Shown here: positions 31,666-44,864 of the stretch, piece by piece
Numbering within the stretch: the stretch's first letter is position 1
Layout: every line of letters begins with the position of its first letter
Source: an uncultured Ignavibacteria bacterium
GTDB taxonomy: Bacteria; Bacteroidota; Ignavibacteria; SZUA-365
Assembly (NCBI GenBank): GCA_913061095.1
Contig: CAJXVM010000024.1
Coordinates: 1-64,000, forward strand
Direction: 5' to 3'
DNA: 64,000 bases
Notes under the pieces: generated by a model
Told to the model about the DNA's origin: nothing
Database searches by the model: none
What the model saw: only the letters and a program-made list of their open reading frames with translations
Program-made: the position numbers and the translations under genes

Positions 31666-34600
31666 TCAGGTTTGGTCATACGTCAATCCATATCCGAACG
31701 GGAATAACGGATCATAGGGATCGTCACCCCGGTTCCAGTTGTCCCGATCGCTGCGGGGCCAGGAAAAGCGCAGCTTCCCGGTAAAATCCTCGTCCCCACA
31801 CAGCACATCCGCGATACCCTGGCCCTCCGATCCGGGCAGCCAGGCCGCGACGAATGCCTGTGATTCCTCAAGTTCACTGTTGACGACCAGCGGCCGGCCG
31901 GACAGCAGTACCGCAACAACGGGAATTCCCTGTGCCCGAATGCGCCGGATCGTCTCAAGATCCTCGGGATGCATGCTGGCGAGTTCCAGCGAACTGCGGT
32001 AGGGTTTCATCACCATATCCGGACGCTCCAGGGATGATCCCAGCGCGACCGATTCGCCTTCTCGCACATCTCCCAGCCCCTCCGCGTAGGGAAGCTCACC
32101 GATAACGACGACGGCGGCATCAAACGATGCGTTATCGGCGGCGGAGCCATCCACGCTCAGCACTGCATCGGACAGCCGCGATTGCAGCGCTTCCCAGATC
32201 GACGTGCCGCCCTCAATGGACGCATTGTCTGATACTCCCTGCCAGGCGATGGTGAATCCGCCGCACTGATGCCCCCGGTTGTCCGCGCTTTTCCCGGCGA
32301 CGAGGATGCGCCCGTTCCCTTTCAGCGGCAATATGCCTTCGTCGTTCTTCAGCAGCACAAGGGATTTGCGGACCGCCTCGCGCGCGACTTCCCTGTGGTC
32401 ATCAGAGCCGAAACTCGGATGATTCGACAGTTCGCGCTCCGCGGGTCGAGGCTGATCGAAAAGGCCGGCAATGAATTTCACGGTCAGGATCCTGCGCACG
32501 GCATCGTCGATGCGCTCCATGGGAATGGAGCCGTTCGCGATGAGGCCGCGCATGGTGCTGATGAACTCTTTCCATTTCTCCGGAACCATCACCATGTCGA
32601 TCCCGGCATTGATCGCGAGAGCGACGGCCTCGCCAAAATCGTCCGCCAGCTGATCAATACCGTTCCAGTCCGATATCACAAAGCCGCGGAATCCCAGTTC
32701 CGTTTTCAGCACATCCGTCAGGAGGTACTTGTGTCCATGGCACTTGTTCCCGTTCCAGCTGTTGTATGATGCCATCACGGTTAGGGCGCCTGCTTCCAGC
32801 GCATCATAATACGGGCGGATGTGTGTCTTCTGCAGTTCCGCGAGCGAGACGGCCGTGTCCCCCTGGTCAATCCCGTCCGTCGTGCCACCATCGCCGACCC
32901 AGTGCTTCGCACAGGCCACGACATGCTCCTGTCCGAAATCTCCCTGCAGTCCTTTGACAAAGCGCCCGCCGCAGAGGCGCACGGTCTCCGGATCCTCGGA
33001 ATAGCTTTCGTATGTGCGGCCCCAGTGATCATTCCGCGCCACCGCAAGCGTGGGCGCGAACGTCCACTCCACACCGGTCGCCCGCACTTCCCGCGCGGTG
33101 ACACGTGCGATGCGCTCGAGCAGATCGGGATCACCCGTGGCGCCGAGCCCGATGTTGTGTGGAAACACCGTCGCACCGCGAACGTTGTTATGCCCGTGAA
33201 TCGCATCGACGCCATAGAGAATGGGAATCGCGAGATGCTCCGCATCTTCTTCCACCGAGGCCATCCAGTATGCGTCGTTCATCGCGACCCAGTCGGCGGG
33301 CGTGTTCTCACCGGGGACCGAGCCGCCGCCGCTGAGCACCGATCCGAGATGATAGGCCTTCACCTCTTCGGGACTGACAGCAAGACGCTCGGTCTGCGTC
33401 ATCTGCCCTATTTTCTGATCGAGATTCATGCGAGAAAGCAATGCCTCGACCTTCTGCGCGATATCGTTCTGTTCCATAATCTGATCCATGACCTCTGCGT
33501 GTTGAAGAGCAACGGTAGTCAGTTCCGGCGAAGTCTCCTCAGCACTCCCCCGCCTTCGTTCCAGCTCGACGCGTACTTCGTGTGCAGTCTGTTCGGTGAT
33601 GGGGAAACGCGCGATCGCCCATATGGCGATGGCGGACGTCACCATCGGGATCCCGGCATCGAAAAGCCGCATCAGGAAAATGGTGCGCTCCGACTGCATC
33701 CCTTCGTTGGCGACATCGAAACCCGTCGCTTCGAGAAGGAATCCGCCGCCGGCCAGCGCCGCCGCCATTCCGAGTTTCACCACCCACCAGAAAATCGAAC
33801 CGAACATGCCCTCGCGCCGTTCGAAGGTGGTCAGTTCGTCGACGTCGACGACATCCGCGACCATGGAGCCCATGAGTGTGAACAGGCCGCCGAGGCCGAA
33901 TGCGAGCAGCGGGGCGGGCAGCAAAACGAGCCAGGGATACGACGGATTGTAGCAGAACCACTTGAGACCGTAGCCGAGGATGGAGATTCCCGTCGACCAG
34001 AAGAACGCACGTCGTTTGCCGATCTTCGTGCCAAGCCAGGTGATTAGCACGATTACGCCAAACGTGGAGATTGCGCCCAGTGTGCCGGCGTACCCGGCGT
34101 ACTCCGCTCCGAGCTGCTGATTGCCCGCGAATACGTAATAGATGATCACGTAAAACTGGAAAGAGGAAACCAGCATGAAGCCGTTGAAGACCATGAACGT
34201 CGCGACGCACAGCTTGAGGAAGGGGCCGGATTTGACCGTCTGACCGAATCCTTTGAAAAACTCAACCATGTCACGACGAAACGCCTTCGCAGCTCCGCCC
34301 ACGCGCTTCGCTTTTCCCTCGCTCACTGCAATGTCGCGGAACGGTTCTCGCAGAAAAAGGGCCGGGAGAATGCCGATGCCGATCGTGACAAATGCGATAA
34401 TGATTGCGAGACCGGCGGCTCCGTCAACCTGATCGTTGAAAAACCCCTTATAGGTCATGATCCAGAGAAACCACGGGGACACGACATAGGCCAGCTGGCC
34501 GATAAAGTTCTGTACTCCCATCAGTCGTGTGCGCTCATGATAGTCGGGTGTGAGTTCATACCCGAGAGCGACCCAGGGAGTAGCAAACACCGTATAGCCG

Positions 34601-34989
34601 AGATAGAAGATGATGGATCCGACGAGGAAAAAGATGAAATAGAATGTCTCGCTCTGTCCCCGCGGAAGCTGCCAGAGCAGCGCAAAGGTGATACCGGCGA
34701 TGATCGCGCCGACGAAAATGAACGGCCGGCGCCGGCCCCATCGCGTCCGGGAATGGTCGGAAATGTATCCCATCAGTGGGTCGGTCAAGGCATCGGTCAG
34801 TCGCGGAAGCGCTCCGAGCAGCCCGACCAGCGCAGGATTCATTCCCAGACCGAGGTTGAGGACGATGATCATCCCGCCGCTTGCCGCGGCCAGTGTATTG
34901 TTGATGAACGCCCCCAGCCCATAAATCACCTTATGGGTGAAGGAGATGCGATCTTCCGGTGCGGTGGCGTACCGCTCGCCTGCTTTCAT
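31666..34989 (-). CDS. Fusion: GPH/MFS-type sugar transporter + GH3 beta-glucosidase in one polypeptide
   Basis: About 1107 residues, one uninterrupted frame (ATG at 34987-34989; a GTG five codons upstream is possible). Residues 1-465 are a 12-helix glycoside-pentoside-hexuronide symporter: DALTD (two Asp spaced like MelB D55/D59), then SDHSRTRWGRRRPFIF, the family loop motif. Residues 466-505 are a charged helical linker. Residues 506-1107 are a complete GH3: KVEALLSRMNLDQKIGQMTQ, VDAIHGHNN, VACAKHWVGDG, nucleophile Asp774 in GFVISDWNGI, and the C-terminal half with SLVLLKND and PFGYGLTY. GPH proteins normally have both ends in the cytoplasm, so the enzyme would meet imported disaccharide at the inner face. 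Fourth gene of the glucan operon. Either half alone would be routine; the join is unusual. Confidence 0.9.
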   Translation of the reverse strand: MKAGERYATAPEDRISFTHKVIYGLGAFINNTLAAASGGMIIVLNLGLGMNPALVGLLGALPRLTDALTDPLMGYISDHSRTRWGRRRPFIFVGAIIAGITFALLWQLPRGQSETFYFIFFLVGSIIFYLGYTVFATPWVALGYELTPDYHERTRLMGVQNFIGQLAYVVSPWFLWIMTYKGFFNDQVDGAAGLAIIIAFVTIGIGILPALFLREPFRDIAVSEGKAKRVGGAAKAFRRDMVEFFKGFGQTVKSGPFLKLCVATFMVFNGFMLVSSFQFYVIIYYVFAGNQQLGAEYAGYAGTLGAISTFGVIVLITWLGTKIGKRRAFFWSTGISILGYGLKWFCYNPSYPWLVLLPAPLLAFGLGGLFTLMGSMVADVVDVDELTTFERREGMFGSIFWWVVKLGMAAALAGGGFLLEATGFDVANEGMQSERTIFLMRLFDAGIPMVTSAIAIWAIARFPITEQTAHEVRVELERRRGSAEETSPELTTVALQHAEVMDQIMEQNDIAQKVEALLSRMNLDQKIGQMTQTERLAVSPEEVKAYHLGSVLSGGGSVPGENTPADWVAMNDAYWMASVEEDAEHLAIPILYGVDAIHGHNNVRGATVFPHNIGLGATGDPDLLERIARVTAREVRATGVEWTFAPTLAVARNDHWGRTYESYSEDPETVRLCGGRFVKGLQGDFGQEHVVACAKHWVGDGGTTDGIDQGDTAVSLAELQKTHIRPYYDALEAGALTVMASYNSWNGNKCHGHKYLLTDVLKTELGFRGFVISDWNGIDQLADDFGEAVALAINAGIDMVMVPEKWKEFISTMRGLIANGSIPMERIDDAVRRILTVKFIAGLFDQPRPAERELSNHPSFGSDDHREVAREAVRKSLVLLKNDEGILPLKGNGRILVAGKSADNRGHQCGGFTIAWQGVSDNASIEGGTSIWEALQSRLSDAVLSVDGSAADNASFDAAVVVIGELPYAEGLGDVREGESVALGSSLERPDMVMKPYRSSLELASMHPEDLETIRRIRAQGIPVVAVLLSGRPLVVNSELEESQAFVAAWLPGSEGQGIADVLCGDEDFTGKLRFSWPRSDRDNWNRGDDPYDPLFPFGYGLTYDQT

Positions 34990-35080
34990 GCGCCTGAACT
35001 CCACGTGTCAATGGGTTTCTCCGGTGCGATCGGACAACACAGCGGTTGTCGCCTTCTGCCGTGCTCTATGCCGGAAGGAG

Positions 35081-35902
35081 CTATGATGCGACCTCCTCGT
35101 ACACGCGCACATAGTCGATGAGCATGCGCTGCGGGAATATGGTATTCTCGTTCGGCGCGCCGACCCAGCCGCCGCCGACGGCCAGATTGAGGATGATGTA
35201 GAATGGATGATTGAACACCCATTCACCGGGAACATCCTCGCGCGAAACGGTGTGGTACAGGGTGCCGTCAACAAACCAGCGGATCTCATCCGCCTTCCAT
35301 TCGACAGCGAAGGTGTGAAATCCCGTGTCGAAACGGTCATTGGGGAGGTCGTACCGCTTCGTCACCGCCTGGGCCGCGGAATATCCCGGCCCGTGGAGAC
35401 TGCCGTGAAGGGTGCTCGGCTGCTGTCCGCGATACTCCATGATGTCGATCTCGCCGCACTGCGGCCAGCCGACCGTTTCGATGTTCGCGCCAAGCAACCA
35501 GAACGCGGGCCACATGCCCTGGCCCCAGGGCAGCTGAATACGCGCTTCGAAGCGTCCGTACGTGCGTTCGAACAAATCCCGGGTCACGATACGCGCCGAT
35601 GTATAGGGCTGTCCGAGGTACGATTCCTTTCGCGCCGTGATCACGAGGTTTCCTTCGCCATCGAGCGACGCGTTTTCGGTTCTGTCAGTGTCGTATTCCA
35701 GCTGGGCGTTCCCCCAGTCCGTTCCGATGTCATGATCCCACTTCGTCGAATCCGGCGGGAGCCCGGCGGCACCGTCAAATTCGTCCTGCCAGACGAGCCT
35801 CCACTGGGAGGATCCCGGATCGGAAGCGTCGTCACCGCAGCCACTGAGGAAAAGGCCGAGAGTCAGCATGGTGAGACAACTCTGTATAAGGATGTGTTTC
35901 AT
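35081..35902 (-). CDS. GH16 endo-beta-glucanase (laminarinase-like) lipoprotein
   Basis: 273 residues. Lipobox LSGC with Cys22, so membrane-anchored outside the cytoplasm. GH16 fold throughout: WQDEFDG, GRFEARIQLPWGQGMWPAFW, and the catalytic signature GEIDIMEYRG with nucleophile Glu151, Asp153 and acid/base Glu156 (the E-x-D-x-x-E form with Met typical of laminarinases and related 1,3-beta-glucanases rather than 1,3-1,4 lichenases), FHTFAVEWKADEIRWFVDG, and a final MLIDYVRVYE. It would cut beta-1,3-glucan chains outside the inner membrane. Its ATG overlaps the stop of the ROK gene by 4 bp; the transporter-GH3 gene follows after 91 bp. Confidence 0.93.
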   Translation of the reverse strand: MKHILIQSCLTMLTLGLFLSGCGDDASDPGSSQWRLVWQDEFDGAAGLPPDSTKWDHDIGTDWGNAQLEYDTDRTENASLDGEGNLVITARKESYLGQPYTSARIVTRDLFERTYGRFEARIQLPWGQGMWPAFWLLGANIETVGWPQCGEIDIMEYRGQQPSTLHGSLHGPGYSAAQAVTKRYDLPNDRFDTGFHTFAVEWKADEIRWFVDGTLYHTVSREDVPGEWVFNHPFYIILNLAVGGGWVGAPNENTIFPQRMLIDYVRVYEEVAS

Positions 35903-37206
35903 ATGCGCACCTGATGATATCGCGGAGATGAAAAAAGTGTCGGATCGGCGAATGCGGCGTTGAGGACAAGTGTTGATGCACCAATGGCGACCGCGCTGGG
36001 ACCAAGCTCACCGATACAGATCTCGGTTGCTGCGACGGATGTAACATAGGTGCGCTCGCGCACGATGGACCGCAGACGTTCGAGCAGCAGATCTCCCGCC
36101 CGCGTGAGGCTGCCCCCGAGAATGATCATGGCGGGATTCATCACATTGAGCAGTCCGGCAATCGCGATGCCGAGATGCTCTGCCGCTTCACTGACAACTT
36201 TCGCGGCAAGGGGATCCCCCGCGCGTGCGGCATCCGCAAGCTGGAGAATTGTCATTTCTTCCGAGCTGAGAGCTGTCTGCTGATACAGCGATCGCAGCGC
36301 CCGGGCACGCGCCAGCAGTGCATCCGTCCCGATAAAGGTTGCCAGGCAGCCCCGCAGACCGCAGACGCAGGGATCGCCTTTCGGGTCAACGGTCATGTGG
36401 CCGATTTCTCCAGCCACCCCGGTGCTCCCGCGATAGATTTCACCACCGAGAATGATGCCCGCTCCGATGCCAGTCGCAACCTTGATGTAGGTAAAGTCCC
36501 GCACATCCCGGCCGGCCCCCCACCATCCTTCCGCAAGCGCACCGAGATTCGCGTCGTTATCCACCAGTATCGGGACGCCGTATCGCCGGTGCAGATTCTC
36601 CAGCCCGATGCGTCCGCGCCAGGATGGCAGCACAACATCTGATATGCGCTGCAGATGGCGAGGATCGACAGGGCTGGGGACCGCGACCCCGATCCCGAGC
36701 AGCCTGCGTGTTCCATTGCCATTGCGTCCCATGCATTCGTCACATAATTCCATCACCGCGGATCGGCTTGCCTCGACGTCTCCGTCGACCGGTCGCTCGC
36801 GCTCCTTCCACTCCAGCACTTTTCCGCGCAGATCCGTCAATGTGACCGAAATGTGCGTCGCTCCGAAATCCACTCCCAGGATTTCGAACGCATCGTCCTG
36901 GAATTCCAGCACGACTGGCCGTCTGCCGCCGCTGGAGGGTTCCATCCCGACTTCCGCCACCAGTCCCGATTGAAGCAGTTTTCGCACGATGTCCGACACC
37001 GTCGAGCGCGCGAGCTTCGTGCGCCGGGCGATGTCGGCGCGGGAGATGCGACGCTCCCGCCATATCAGCTCAAGGACGATATCGGCGAGTGAACGCGGTG
37101 CCTGCGTTCCCGGGAGCGACAGGTCTGCTCCGTACGTGGCATCGGTATTCAGCCCGATCGAGGCCGCGGGCAGATTCGAGAGCGGTTTATTCGTGGAAGT
37201 AAACAT
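35899..37206 (-). CDS. ROK-family transcriptional regulator of the glucan locus
   Basis: About 435 residues from the ATG at 37204-37206, which overlaps the end of the upstream gene by 20 bp; longer in-frame starts are less likely. Residues 35-95 form a winged helix (SRADIARRTKLARSTVSDIV). The ROK sugar-kinase-like domain has LGVDFGATHISVTL, DNDANLGALAEGWWGAG, GIGAGIILGG and the zinc motif CVCGLRGCL; the usual Glu after GCL is Ala. Such NagC/XylR-type proteins release DNA on binding a sugar or sugar phosphate. Second gene in the operon, so likely autoregulated. Candidate operators lie at 39190-39204 and 39325-39344. Confidence 0.88.
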   Translation of the reverse strand: MFTSTNKPLSNLPAASIGLNTDATYGADLSLPGTQAPRSLADIVLELIWRERRISRADIARRTKLARSTVSDIVRKLLQSGLVAEVGMEPSSGGRRPVVLEFQDDAFEILGVDFGATHISVTLTDLRGKVLEWKERERPVDGDVEASRSAVMELCDECMGRNGNGTRRLLGIGVAVPSPVDPRHLQRISDVVLPSWRGRIGLENLHRRYGVPILVDNDANLGALAEGWWGAGRDVRDFTYIKVATGIGAGIILGGEIYRGSTGVAGEIGHMTVDPKGDPCVCGLRGCLATFIGTDALLARARALRSLYQQTALSSEEMTILQLADAARAGDPLAAKVVSEAAEHLGIAIAGLLNVMNPAMIILGGSLTRAGDLLLERLRSIVRERTYVTSVAATEICIGELGPSAVAIGASTLVLNAAFADPTLFSSPRYHQVRI

Positions 37207-39109
37207 TGTCGATATAAATCGTGCGGAGATCACCTGAAATAACGATTTGTGCGATGTGCCCTCGCGTAACGAGTCCGGTGAAGACTGAGAGCGGGATATC
37301 AAGACTGCTCCAGTTGCCAGTGGTGATCGCGGGAGTGGTTGAAGCATTCAGCGACACTTCATGCTCGACGTCATCGCCGCCATCGAATACACCATTGGGT
37401 CCGAAATCAACCAGCTTGATTTTCAGCACCGCGGGATCGGTGATGACATCCGGAGTCCAGACGTCCATGTGAAAATGCGTCATGGCTGTGGCATCGATGG
37501 TCTGGGAGGTAAACTCGATCCCGGCGAACACGACACTGGTGTATTTCTTGACGTCATCCCCCTCAATCGTGATGTCGGCGAGATCGGCGTCATCCCAGAC
37601 CGCGGACCAGGTGTCCACCAGCACGTCATCATAGGCATTGCTGAAAAGTGAGATCACTTCCGACGCCGGGACGGTCGGTGTGGGAGCAGGCACTGCAGGT
37701 TCGGTCGGCATGTCGCCTCGATAGAAATAGATGTTGTCGACGTACACCGTATTAGGATCGCCTGAAATGATCATCTGCGCGAGATGGGCTTTTGTTCTCA
37801 GTCCGGTGAACGCCGAAAGCGGGATATCAAGCCCGACCCAGCGATTGCTCGCCAGTGCAGGCATCGATGAGCTCGTCAGAGTGAGTTCGTGCTCGGCATC
37901 ATCCCCGCCGCCGAATGCACCGTCCGCGCCGAAATCAACCAGTTTGATTTTGAATACAGCCGGCGGGTCCGTCGGATCCGGCGTCCAGAAGTCCACGTGA
38001 AGGGTGGTCATGTCCGAGGCGTCAATCAGCTGCGAGGTGAACTCGATCCCGGCGAACACGAGGTTGGAATATTTCTTCACATCGTCACCCTCGATCTGGA
38101 TATCGGATACGCCGGCATCGTCCCAGTCGGCGGACCAGGTATCGACCGGGACGTTGGAGTAGGCATTGCTGAAAAGCGAAATGACATCGGCAGCGGCGAT
38201 CGTCGGCACGGGCGCCGGTGCGGCGGGTCCGGGTGCCGCTTCGCCGACCGTGACCGTCACCGTGCCGTCGACGTCCACCGATCCGAGCGTGGCGCTGATC
38301 GTGGCCGTCCCCAGGCCGACGGCGGTGATAAGCCCGTTCTCGTCGACGGTCGCAACGCCGTCATCGGAAGAGGAAAATGTAAAATACCCGGGCAATGCGT
38401 AGATGGTATTGGGCACCCCGCTCTGATCATAGGTGACGCCGGTCCCTTCGACGGGAAAGCTGTCGTTAATCTCCGCCGTGACCGTACGGCTTGTCATGAA
38501 CGGTTTCGGATGTGCGAGTGTCCCGAGGCGCTCGAACTGTACGTCATCGATGAACAGCTCGTATCCGTTTCCGTTCTCCGGTCCCTCGGCCAGGAATAGG
38601 AGTCCCCGTTCCTGCACGAGTTTCTCGGGAAGCGGAATGGGAAGGGTGTATTTTCTCCATGTCGTGGAGACAGGCAGATCGGACTTCAGCGCGACATAGC
38701 GAGAGGTGCCGGAGTTGTCATTTCCGAAGCCGACCTCATTGAGCGTGGCAGGCATGCTCCCTTTTGCCCAGAAGGTCAGCGCGTCATATCCCGACAGGTC
38801 GCGTCCGCCCGCGCTGACAAACGTGCCGCCCGCGAACGATCCGGACGGATCGCCCTCATTCGGAATGACGAACATCAGCGACTTTGTGCCGCGGTATGTC
38901 ACCGAAGTCGAGATATCAAGGGCATCGACCTTTGAAGCGCCAAAGGCATGGTATTGAACACCGGGACCGAATTCGTCAATGAACACTTCCGCAGTCGTGG
39001 GATACGCAGCAGGCTCGAGTGTGCTCTCGTCCCTCTCGCAGCCGGCCGTGACCAGTATCATGACGACGGCCGCAGAAGCTGCGAAACGGATCATACTATT
39101 CGCGGTCAT
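37187..39109 (-). CDS. Lipoprotein with Ig-like domain and two glucan-locus modules (putative glucan-binding)
   Basis: 640 residues. Lipobox VTAGC with Cys24. Residues about 35-200 are a galactose-binding-type beta-sandwich (FWAKGSMPATLNEVGFG, LFIDDVQFERLG). Residues 205-295 contain a BIG2-type Ig fold (VATVDENGLITAVGLGTATI). Two 165-residue modules follow (DVISLFSNAYSNVPVDTWSA and EVISLFSNAYDDVLVDTWSA), each closing with DxxTVYVDNIYFY or a variant, homologous to the pair in the T9SS protein at 29685. No enzyme motif is seen. It occupies the place where other Bacteroidota loci have a surface glycan-binding lipoprotein. First gene of the operon, transcribed from the promoter at 39205-39233. 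Confidence 0.8.
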   Translation of the reverse strand: MTANSMIRFAASAAVVMILVTAGCERDESTLEPAAYPTTAEVFIDEFGPGVQYHAFGASKVDALDISTSVTYRGTKSLMFVIPNEGDPSGSFAGGTFVSAGGRDLSGYDALTFWAKGSMPATLNEVGFGNDNSGTSRYVALKSDLPVSTTWRKYTLPIPLPEKLVQERGLLFLAEGPENGNGYELFIDDVQFERLGTLAHPKPFMTSRTVTAEINDSFPVEGTGVTYDQSGVPNTIYALPGYFTFSSSDDGVATVDENGLITAVGLGTATISATLGSVDVDGTVTVTVGEAAPGPAAPAPVPTIAAADVISLFSNAYSNVPVDTWSADWDDAGVSDIQIEGDDVKKYSNLVFAGIEFTSQLIDASDMTTLHVDFWTPDPTDPPAVFKIKLVDFGADGAFGGGDDAEHELTLTSSSMPALASNRWVGLDIPLSAFTGLRTKAHLAQMIISGDPNTVYVDNIYFYRGDMPTEPAVPAPTPTVPASEVISLFSNAYDDVLVDTWSAVWDDADLADITIEGDDVKKYTSVVFAGIEFTSQTIDATAMTHFHMDVWTPDVITDPAVLKIKLVDFGPNGVFDGGDDVEHEVSLNASTTPAITTGNWSSLDIPLSVFTGLVTRGHIAQIVISGDLRTIYIDNVYFHE

Positions 39110-39189
39110 GTCTCGTCTCCAGTTCTATGAAAAATGAATGAACGATCGCGGGAAAGAATTTCAGCCCGGAGGACTGGTTGGCATTGATG

Positions 39190-39204
39190 ACTTTGTTCGA
39201 TGAC
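39190..39204 (-). promoter_or_regulatory. Candidate operator at the glucan operon promoter
   Basis: Minus strand GTCATCGAACAAAGT immediately after the -10 element. CGAACAAAGT recurs in the same position relative to the divergent promoter (39335-39344). TTTGT-N6-ACAAA at 39192-39207 forms an imperfect inverted repeat. The position over the start site suits a repressor. Confidence 0.55.
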
Positions 39205-39233
39205 AAAATAATGTTGGCAACACCATTTGTCAA
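39205..39233 (-). promoter_or_regulatory. Sigma70-type promoter of the minus-strand glucan operon
   Basis: On the minus strand TTGACA (39228-39233), 17-base spacer, TATTTT (39205-39210). Gives a leader of about 90 bases to the ATG at 39109. Confidence 0.65.
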
Positions 39234-39295
39234 GAAAAAAATCATCCCGACCGCCATAATTATCCATTCTTAAGGACTATATGCACATTTTTTTC

Positions 39296-39324
39296 TTGAC
39301 ATCGCTCAGAAAACATGCTACATT
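39296..39324 (+). promoter_or_regulatory. Sigma70-type promoter of the glycosidase-barrel gene
   Basis: TTGACA (39296-39301), 17-base spacer, TACATT (39319-39324). Leader of about 88 bases to the ATG at 39419. Divergent partner of the promoter at 39205-39233. Confidence 0.65.
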
Positions 39325-39344
39325 GTTTGCGATTCGAACAAAGT
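39325..39344 (+). promoter_or_regulatory. Candidate operator at the glycosidase-barrel promoter
   Basis: GTTTGCGATTCGAACAAAGT directly after the -10. It shares CGAACAAAGT with the opposite promoter, in the same orientation relative to transcription, and together with the preceding TT (TTGTTnG...CnAACAA) forms an imperfect inverted repeat. Confidence 0.55.
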
Positions 39345-39418
39345 ATGCCGCAAGATGTTGCTCGGTGGCCCAAACGTGTTTCCGCCAGACAGACTTTCCA
39401 TTTCGTGAGGAGGCTCTC

Positions 39419-42674: not shown

Positions 42675-44864
42675 ATGGAACACACGTCCTCTCCGGATAC
42701 GCAGATTCGTGATCTGCTGCAGCGCATGACACTCCCTGAAAAGATAGGTCAGCTGCAGCTGGTCAACGGTGCCGGCGGTACTATCCCGGACGACCTGCGC
42801 GCAGCGGTCGCCTCGGGAAGCGTCGGCGCTGTCCTCAATGAAGTCAATCCGGCGGTTGTTCATGAGCTTCAGAGCATCGCTGTCCATGACAGCCGTCACG
42901 GCATTCCGCTGCTGATCGGTCGAGATGTCATTCATGGTTTTGCGACAGTGTTTCCGATTCCGCTCGGGCAGGCCGCGAGCTGGAATCCGGAGATCGTGCG
43001 GCGCGGCGCCCGGATCGCGGCGCGCGAGGCCGCGGCGACAGGGATCAACTGGACCTTCGCTCCCATGGTCGACATCGGTCGTGATCCCCGGTGGGGCAGA
43101 ATTGCCGAGACGCTCGGAGAGGATCCCTATCTGAGCGGTGTGCTGGCCGCAGCGATGGTGCGGGGATTTCAGGGCGACGACCTGTCGCAACCCTCGAGCC
43201 TCGCGGCCTGCGCGAAGCATTTCGCCGGGTACGGCGCCAGCGAGAGCGGTCGTGACTACAACACGACGAATATTCCGGAAATCGACCTGCGCGACATCCA
43301 CCTTCCGTCATTCAAGGCGGCGTGTGACGCCGGCGTCGCCACCTTCATGACCTCGTTCAGCGACCTGAACGGCATTCCCGCAACCGCCAATGACTTCCTC
43401 CTGAAAAAAATTCTCCGTGAAGAATGGGGATTCGACGGCTTCGTCGTCAGCGACTGGGAGTCCGTTTCGCAGCTGTCGATTCACGGACTGACGCCGGACG
43501 ACAGAGAGTCCGCCTTCGAGGCAGCGCAGGCGGGGCTCGACATGGAGATGGCGAGCACGACCTTCGCCGCGCATCTCGCTTCCCTGGTCGAAGAAGGACG
43601 CATCCCGGCTCAGAGAATCGATGCGATGGTGGAAAATGTCCTGCGCATCAAATTCCGCCTCGGCCTTTTTTCACACCGGCACGAGCACACCGAAGATCTT
43701 TCCGTTATCGCACACCCTGACCACCTCTCCGCTGCAAAGGATGCCGCTGTCGAGAGCATGGTGCTGTTGAAGAATGACAACAATCTGCTTCCGCTGGCAA
43801 CAACGGAGCGCACCTCGATTGCCGTGATCGGACCACTGGCGGACGATCCGTACGAGCAATTAGGGACGTGGATATTCGATGGGGATGAACGGCACAGTGT
43901 TACTCCTCTGCAGTCCATCCGCCAGGCGGTTCCGGAGGATGTAACCATCCATCATGCGCGCGCGATGGCGACGACACGAAGCCGGGATCGGGAAGGATTC
44001 GACGAAGCACTGCGGTGTGCCGCCGATTCCGATGCCGTCATTCTCTTTCTCGGAGAGGAATCCATCCTCTCCGGGGAAGCGCACTGCCGTGCCGATATCC
44101 GCCTTCCCGGGAATCAGGAAGAGCTCATCAGGGAAATCGCCGCGATCGGCAAACCCGTCGTGCTCGTGATCATGGCGGGCCGGCCGCTGGCTCTCGAAGA
44201 CGTCATCGGCAGCGTGGACGCACTGCTTTACGCCTGGCATCCCGGCAGCATGGCGGGTCCGGCCATCGCCGACCTCCTGTTCGGCGCCGCGGCACCGTCC
44301 GGCAAACTTCCGGTCACGTTCCCGCGTGTCACGGGTCAGATCCCGATCTACTACGCCCACAAGAATACGGGCAAACCCGCGATTCCATCCGAGGTAATGC
44401 ACATCGACGACATTCCTCCCAGGGCACCACAGGTGTCATTCGGACTCACATCCTTCCATCTCGACGCGGGAGCCTCCCCCCTCTTCCCCTTCGGCTTCGG
44501 CCTTTCGTACACGACGTTCAGATACGACAATATCAGAACGGACACACCCGAGATTCAGCTTGGCGATCGCATCGTTGTCACCGCGGACCTGACAAACACC
44601 GGAGACCGGGAGGGCACGGAGATCGTGCAGCTCTACGTGCGTGATCTGGTCGGCAGCGTCACGAGACCGGTCAGGGAACTCAAGGCATTCAAACGCGTCC
44701 TTCTGCAGCCGGGAGAAATGCAGTCCGTTTCCTTCGAACTTCATACCGATGATCTCGCCTTTACCAACAGGCACATGCAGCGTGTCACGGAACCGGGTGA
44801 ATTTTACGCGTGGATTGGAGGCAGCTCGGAAACGGAGCTGAAAGCCCGGTTCATGGTCCGTTGA
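42675..44864 (+). CDS. bglX: GH3 beta-glucosidase, cytoplasmic (BglX-like)
   Basis: 729 residues and no signal peptide, so probably cytoplasmic. Typical GH3 order: RMTLPEKIGQLQLVNG, GRDVIHGFATVFPIPLG, NWTFAPMVDIGRDPRWGR, ACAKHFAGYGA, nucleophile Asp260 in GFVVSDWESV, then the alpha/beta sandwich (VLLKNDNNLLPL) and the FN3-like C-terminal domain (GLSYTTFRYDN, VQLYVRDLVGSVTRPVRELK). It would release glucose from short beta-linked oligosaccharides. Probably transcribed from the barrel-glycosidase promoter, 91 bp away. The locus therefore encodes two GH3 enzymes, this free one and the transporter-fused one. Confidence 0.9.
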   Translation: MEHTSSPDTQIRDLLQRMTLPEKIGQLQLVNGAGGTIPDDLRAAVASGSVGAVLNEVNPAVVHELQSIAVHDSRHGIPLLIGRDVIHGFATVFPIPLGQAASWNPEIVRRGARIAAREAAATGINWTFAPMVDIGRDPRWGRIAETLGEDPYLSGVLAAAMVRGFQGDDLSQPSSLAACAKHFAGYGASESGRDYNTTNIPEIDLRDIHLPSFKAACDAGVATFMTSFSDLNGIPATANDFLLKKILREEWGFDGFVVSDWESVSQLSIHGLTPDDRESAFEAAQAGLDMEMASTTFAAHLASLVEEGRIPAQRIDAMVENVLRIKFRLGLFSHRHEHTEDLSVIAHPDHLSAAKDAAVESMVLLKNDNNLLPLATTERTSIAVIGPLADDPYEQLGTWIFDGDERHSVTPLQSIRQAVPEDVTIHHARAMATTRSRDREGFDEALRCAADSDAVILFLGEESILSGEAHCRADIRLPGNQEELIREIAAIGKPVVLVIMAGRPLALEDVIGSVDALLYAWHPGSMAGPAIADLLFGAAAPSGKLPVTFPRVTGQIPIYYAHKNTGKPAIPSEVMHIDDIPPRAPQVSFGLTSFHLDAGASPLFPFGFGLSYTTFRYDNIRTDTPEIQLGDRIVVTADLTNTGDREGTEIVQLYVRDLVGSVTRPVRELKAFKRVLLQPGEMQSVSFELHTDDLAFTNRHMQRVTEPGEFYAWIGGSSETELKARFMVR

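Follow-up and report, generated by a model that had tools for sequence, protein, structure and literature searches.

The ROK regulator encoded in a laminarin-type locus of an uncultured Ignavibacteria bacterium very probably binds two operators in the divergent intergenic region of that locus, where it would repress both flanking operons, including its own, until released by a sugar derived from the glucan. A 25-bp palindrome lies over both promoters and, because it follows the ROK gene from genome to genome, regulation of both promoters by ROK as well as autoregulation are strongly supported by comparison. From these patterns we infer that ROK physically binds, that it acts as a repressor and not as an activator, and which sugar is its effector.

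The glucan locus and its divergent operons

The window, i.e. the whole stretch of 64,000 nucleotides that was analyzed, contains an endo-β-1,3-glucanase, β-glucosidases and a transporter in one cluster (GH16, two GH3 and GPH), the composition of a laminarin utilization locus. Its nearest named records are MAGs of Ignavibacteria and Bacteroidetes. GH16 is closest to the laminarinase-type structures 3ATG, 2HYK and 3AZX, and the first protein of the minus operon, SBP640, is likely glucan-binding. GHx, which opens the plus operon, gives a weak match to the GH2 TIM-barrel in Pfam, has essentially no solved relative and is conserved across many phyla; judged by its sequence, it possibly represents an undescribed family active on β-glucan. 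The mechanically called GHx start, ATG 39281, lies upstream of the gene's own promoter, and ATG 39419, with GAGGAGG ahead of it, is likely the actual start. The transporter and GH3 of the minus operon form a single open reading frame of 1112 aa (transporter about 1-490, GH3 about 505-1112). This fusion is also continuous in loci L078 and L190; in L085 and L087 the two parts are encoded by separate genes.

Table 1 Features of the β-glucan locus and its intergenic region in the window.
Feature	Position	Strand	Remark
Transporter-GH3: GPH/MFS sugar transporter fused to GH3 β-glucosidase	31666..35004	-	minus operon
GH16, laminarinase-type β-1,3-glucanase	35081..35902	-	minus operon
ROK regulator, winged HTH + ROK domain, ExGH and zinc motifs	35899..37206	-	second gene of minus operon
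SBP640, 640 aa, lipoprotein-like, Ig-like and repeated domains	37187..39109	-	first gene of minus operon
Intergenic region between operon starts	39110-39418		minus ATG 39109, plus ATG 39419
Minus operator ACATTATTTT-GTCAT-CGAACAAAGT	39190..39214	-	16/20 to family palindrome
Minus promoter -10 TATTTT	39205..39210	-	N17 from -35
Minus promoter -35 TTGACA	39228..39233	-	starts 19 bp before minus operator
ATTTTTTTCTTGACA, second copy	39228..39242	-	at minus -35
ATTTTTTTCTTGACA, 15-bp block, T-tract (UP-element-like) + -35	39287..39301	+
Plus promoter -35 TTGACA	39296..39301	+	24 bp before plus operator (start to start), as in most distant loci
Plus promoter -10 TACATT	39319..39324	+	N17 from -35
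Plus operator ACATTGTTTG-CGATT-CGAACAAAGT	39320..39344	+	18/20 to family palindrome; left arm overlaps -10
GHx, putative glycosidase, ~1050 aa	39419..42583	+	first gene of plus operon
GH3 β-glucosidase, BglX-like	42675..44864	+	plus operon

Two promoters share a word and a -35 block

The intergenic region holds two divergent sigma-A-type promoters, TTGACA-N17-TATTTT (minus) and TTGACA-N17-TACATT (plus), both located exactly where the earlier note had placed them. That note had also described CGAACAAAGT as following each -10 box within 5-10 bases, and we found gaps of 5 (minus) and 10 (plus) bases; the window contains exactly two copies of the word (39190-39199 on the minus and 39335-39344 on the plus strand). 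Its picture of a matched, mirror-image placement holds in that the word lies downstream of both -10 boxes but is only approximate, because the minus operator is 5 bp closer to its -35, leaving the two operators 5 bp out of register with respect to their promoters.

The word by itself carries little weight. Exact copies of CGAACAAAGT number seven in the whole 4.6-Mb genome, about the expectation from base composition, and its rarity was therefore rejected as evidence. None of the other five copies stands in a promoter-like context, and a whole-genome pattern search for the full palindrome, allowing up to three mismatches, gave no further match anywhere in the source genome. The motif search proposed earlier thus singles out the full site, found only here, while the word alone occurs at about chance level; what stands above chance is the pairing, placement and conservation of the two sites. 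A second likeness between the promoters, absent from the earlier note, is ATTTTTTTCTTGACA, an identical 15-bp block at both -35 regions. TTTTTTTCTTGACA has exactly four copies in the genome, two of them in this intergenic region, and is therefore neither universal nor specific to the locus, so that a general T-tract promoter was rejected as an idea.

The word is the right arm of a 25-bp palindrome

A search with the GHx protein returned 67 loci in MAGs of many phyla, and in many of them a palindrome is seen upstream of GHx. Across these related loci the full site is the 25-bp palindrome ACTTTGTTCG-N5-CGAACAAAGT, with CGAACAAAGT as its right arm. An early reading of the arms from four aligned close relatives (ATTTTGT-N6-ACAAAGT and ACATTGT-N11-ACAAAGT) was dropped because its two spacings disagreed; the distant loci gave the 25-bp frame instead. 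In 924 kb of related loci, 58 sites match at least 16 of the 20 arm positions and 48 at least 17, compared with 0-2 and 0, respectively, for permuted-arm controls. A logo of 58 distinct sites gives ~0.9-1.8 bits for each of the 20 arm positions, whereas the central bases carry almost no information. In many phyla such sites recur ahead of the SBP-ROK-GH16 operon as well as ahead of the glycosidase gene; the genes that they precede are GHx, SBP640, the transporter gene, GH16, GH1 and further genes for secreted proteins or ABC transport.

The distance to the promoter is nearly as constant as the site itself. The start of TTGACA lies 24 bp ahead of the operator in 32 cases, 25 bp in 16 and 26 bp in 7, and no other offset in the range of 10-60 bp accounts for more than three. 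In the related loci the left arm of the operator makes up the -10 region, with the right arm extending beyond the start point, and this places the operator in a repressor position. As in ROK sites in general (PMC2580772, PMC4856308), the left arm of this inverted repeat is T-rich and the right arm A-rich, and the repeat overlaps the promoter. Since the repeat is close to the transcript start, an attenuator or leader hairpin in the RNA is another conceivable function. We regard this as hardly credible because the overlap with the -10 puts the left arm upstream of the expected start, hence in untranscribed DNA, and an Rfam search for an RNA element returned no match.

In the window, the outer arm of the minus operator is perfect, and its inner arm, which holds the -10 TATTTT, is degenerate. 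Among 60 relatives, only genomes G003, G004 and G011 have a full-length ROK ortholog (65-76%) together with GHx (70-87%). In these three the intergenic DNA has otherwise largely diverged. Both arms of the minus operator are kept, the CGAACAAAGT arm at 10 of 10 positions, together with the -35 and the greater part of the -10 region. At the plus site, G003 has kept the arm and G011 part of it, while in G004 it is degraded and the site is down to 14/20.

The palindrome also occurs before oligopeptide-type ABC transporter ATPases or secreted proteins in L195, L216 and L218, from Krumholzibacteriota/Eisenbacteria-type MAGs, with the recurrent variant ACTATGTTCG-N5-CGAATCAAGT. These extra sites suggest a larger regulon with several sites per genome.

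The site follows the ROK gene

Among 391 genomes of the same class, the site (palindrome with at most two mismatches; eight genomes) is present in 7 of the 9 with a ROK ortholog (E<=1e-70) and in 1 of the 382 without one (Fisher p ~1e-12). The remaining two ROK-bearing genomes are G004 and G011, both with diverged sites. Across 50 genomes with the glucan locus, 36 of 37 ROK-positive and 3 of 13 ROK-negative genomes carry the site. This table left out L092, L132 and L141, whose addition brings the ROK-negative genomes with a site to 5 of 16 (p ~6e-7), as well as genomes with ROKs of 41-47% identity. A control pattern read backward gave no sites in the 50 GHx-locus genomes. Five loci were retrieved through the ROK protein alone, and all five carry the site, at 18-20/20, immediately ahead of the opening gene of the locus; one of them, L190, has two operators in a divergent region with the same layout as the window. 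At 41-47% identity of the ROK orthologs the sites are weak or absent. Neither outcome that the earlier note named as evidence against its idea came up, since the full site has no further match in the genome and close ROK orthologs keep it, with weakening or loss confined to this distance. The idea itself, a shared ROK operator on both promoters, is supported by the comparison: the full site is unique in its genome and tracks ROK. Near a second, diverged ROK ortholog in G071:C86 (L192; 51% identity) and G076:C217 (L193; 55% identity), palindrome-like sites were also observed.

Five genomes (L092, L096, L108, L126 and L132) have the site while no ROK ortholog was found, which may be due to incomplete MAGs. 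They are what would be expected if the palindrome were the operator of another regulator encoded elsewhere, e.g. of LacI- or GntR-type, and the ROK gene only a passenger of the locus. This is improbable. Glucan loci without ROK mostly lack the site, and none was found in the ROK-less glucan loci of complete or large genomes (L125 and Treponema L134), i.e. the site co-occurs with the ROK gene and not with the glycosidase. Moreover, ROK is the sole regulator family among the conserved genes, the arm sequence is identical to that of a ROK site mapped earlier (PMC4856308) and the frame is shared with the repeat in the NagC region.

The same distribution bears on a simpler reading of the shared words as strong promoter or initiation (discriminator) sequence, without any repressor. 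The position of the word right after each -10 and the shared ATTTTTTTCTTGACA block would fit, but relatives show a two-armed 25-bp palindrome that is missing in almost all ROK-less genomes. In its own genome the full element is found only here, despite dozens of TTGACA-N17-TAnnTT sites, making this reading very improbable.

The regulator and its proposed action

The protein has a ROK domain (Pfam PF00480, 2.6e-61) and an N-terminal winged helix-turn-helix (HTH_24/MarR matches, residues 91-130), the latter of which, to our knowledge, ROK kinases lack. The recognition region SRSTVS is conserved in its orthologs. The Glu and His of ExGH, the zinc ligands CxCGxxGC and the catalytic Asp do not vary among 52 orthologs, whereas the ATP motif DxGxT does; the protein is therefore more likely a sugar sensor than a kinase, and a role as kinase-repressor was rejected. 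Relatives with solved structures include Lmo0178, Mlc and XylR. Against the NCBIfam equivalog cut-offs it scores 226 of 650 bits for NagC and 195 of 530 bits for Mlc, and thus is an equivalog of neither. With its mechanically called start, ATG 37347, the ROK frame would run over the last 161 bp of the upstream gene (37187-37347); ATG 37206 is the likelier start.

Based on these features, a ROK dimer (or tetramer) would sit on the 25-bp palindrome with two winged-HTH domains, one per 10-bp arm. Bound ROK would span ~-13 to +12 at the plus promoter; at the minus promoter it would cover the -10/start region. By blocking RNA polymerase it would repress the plus operon (GHx, GH3) and, by autoregulation, its own operon (SBP640, ROK, GH16, transporter-GH3). 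A sugar derived from β-1,3-glucan, most likely glucose, laminaribiose or another β-glucoside, may enter the ExGH/zinc pocket and so release the repressor.

ROK could also bind and mainly activate, act as a dual regulator, or repress through a loop between operators. The window, L190 and L097 each have two operators in a single intergenic region, activation by a ROK protein is known from CysR (PMC2580772), and for NagC dual regulation by way of a loop has been described (PMC5432517). We consider these modes unlikely, since the operator covers the -10 and the start point and lies at a near-constant distance from the -35, as expected of a repressor, while promoters activated by CysR carry the site upstream of the -35 (PMC2580772). 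Where two operators occur, their spacing is inconstant (about 130, 129, 190 and 195 bp), so a constant loop length was rejected; looping between the two window operators, with centres 130 bp apart, is no more than a possibility.

Spread and significance of the cassette

TTGACA-N18/19-ACTTTGTTCG-N5-CGAACAAAGT appears to be kept nearly base for base together with ROK and glucan genes in MAGs of about eight or more phyla, assigned to Ignavibacteria/Rhodothermales, Zixibacteria, Gemmatimonadota, Krumholzibacteriota, Eisenbacteria, Latescibacterota and others. Two records labelled Candidatus Kuenenia (L114 and L130) carry a Gemmatimonadota-like copy of the locus, and a mislabelled or mixed bin is possible. 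We see about an even chance that this is one promoter-operator cassette, maybe a self-contained, self-regulating laminarin island that moves between phyla, and a previously undescribed regulon of mostly uncultured bacteria.

Laminarin is one of the major carbon stores of algae. The glucan genes of poorly cultured phyla are usually annotated without regulatory information, and for several of these phyla the analysis provides an exact candidate operator and regulator for the digestion of β-1,3-glucan of the laminarin type. Being so conserved and so specific, the operator could serve in searches of MAGs for further members of the regulon and in the design of sugar-inducible promoters. It also appears, as far as sequence can tell, to be an example of a ROK operator fused into the -10 box across phyla.

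Comparison with known ROK systems

NagC responds to GlcNAc-6-P and Mlc to the glucose PTS. The site resembles those of E. coli NagC/Mlc in being an inverted repeat with a T-rich left and an A-rich right arm that goes with a wHTH-ROK protein. In the E. coli nagB-nagE region, to which NagC binds, the best inverted repeat in a 25-bp frame is GTTTAATTTG-CGATA-CGAATTAAAT. This nagE-side repeat shares the CG at +/-3-4 around a 5-bp centre, but its arms match the new consensus at only 12/20 positions.

The mapped novH site of Streptomyces RokB, TTTGTTC-N11-GAACAAA, has heptamer arms identical to those found here (PMC4856308). However, 11 bases separate the heptamers in the RokB site versus 7 here, and the regulon is unrelated. 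Streptomyces CsnR is a ROK repressor whose operator at csnN106, a conserved palindrome, covers the point where transcription of a polysaccharide-hydrolase gene, for a chitosanase, begins (PMC3048496). The likeness is one of regulator family and operator placement; CsnR comes from an actinomycete, and its target is chitosan rather than β-glucan.

In content, the locus is like the regulon of Thermotoga maritima BglR, a ROK repressor of the laminarinase operon that is released by cellobiose and glucose (PMC3750489). Both have a ROK regulator within the operon, a laminarinase and a β-glucosidase, with transport of laminaribiose/cellobiose on the BglR side (PMC3750489); this likeness is one of regulon genes and regulator family. 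Unlike the BglR regulon, with its ABC transporter, the present locus has a GPH transporter, GHx and a surface protein, and it belongs to a distant phylum. The literature that we searched contained no description of this regulon, which is not proof of absence. Overall, this is a known kind of system, NagC/Mlc/BglR/CsnR-type ROK regulation of a laminarin locus, with an unusually conserved promoter-operator cassette.
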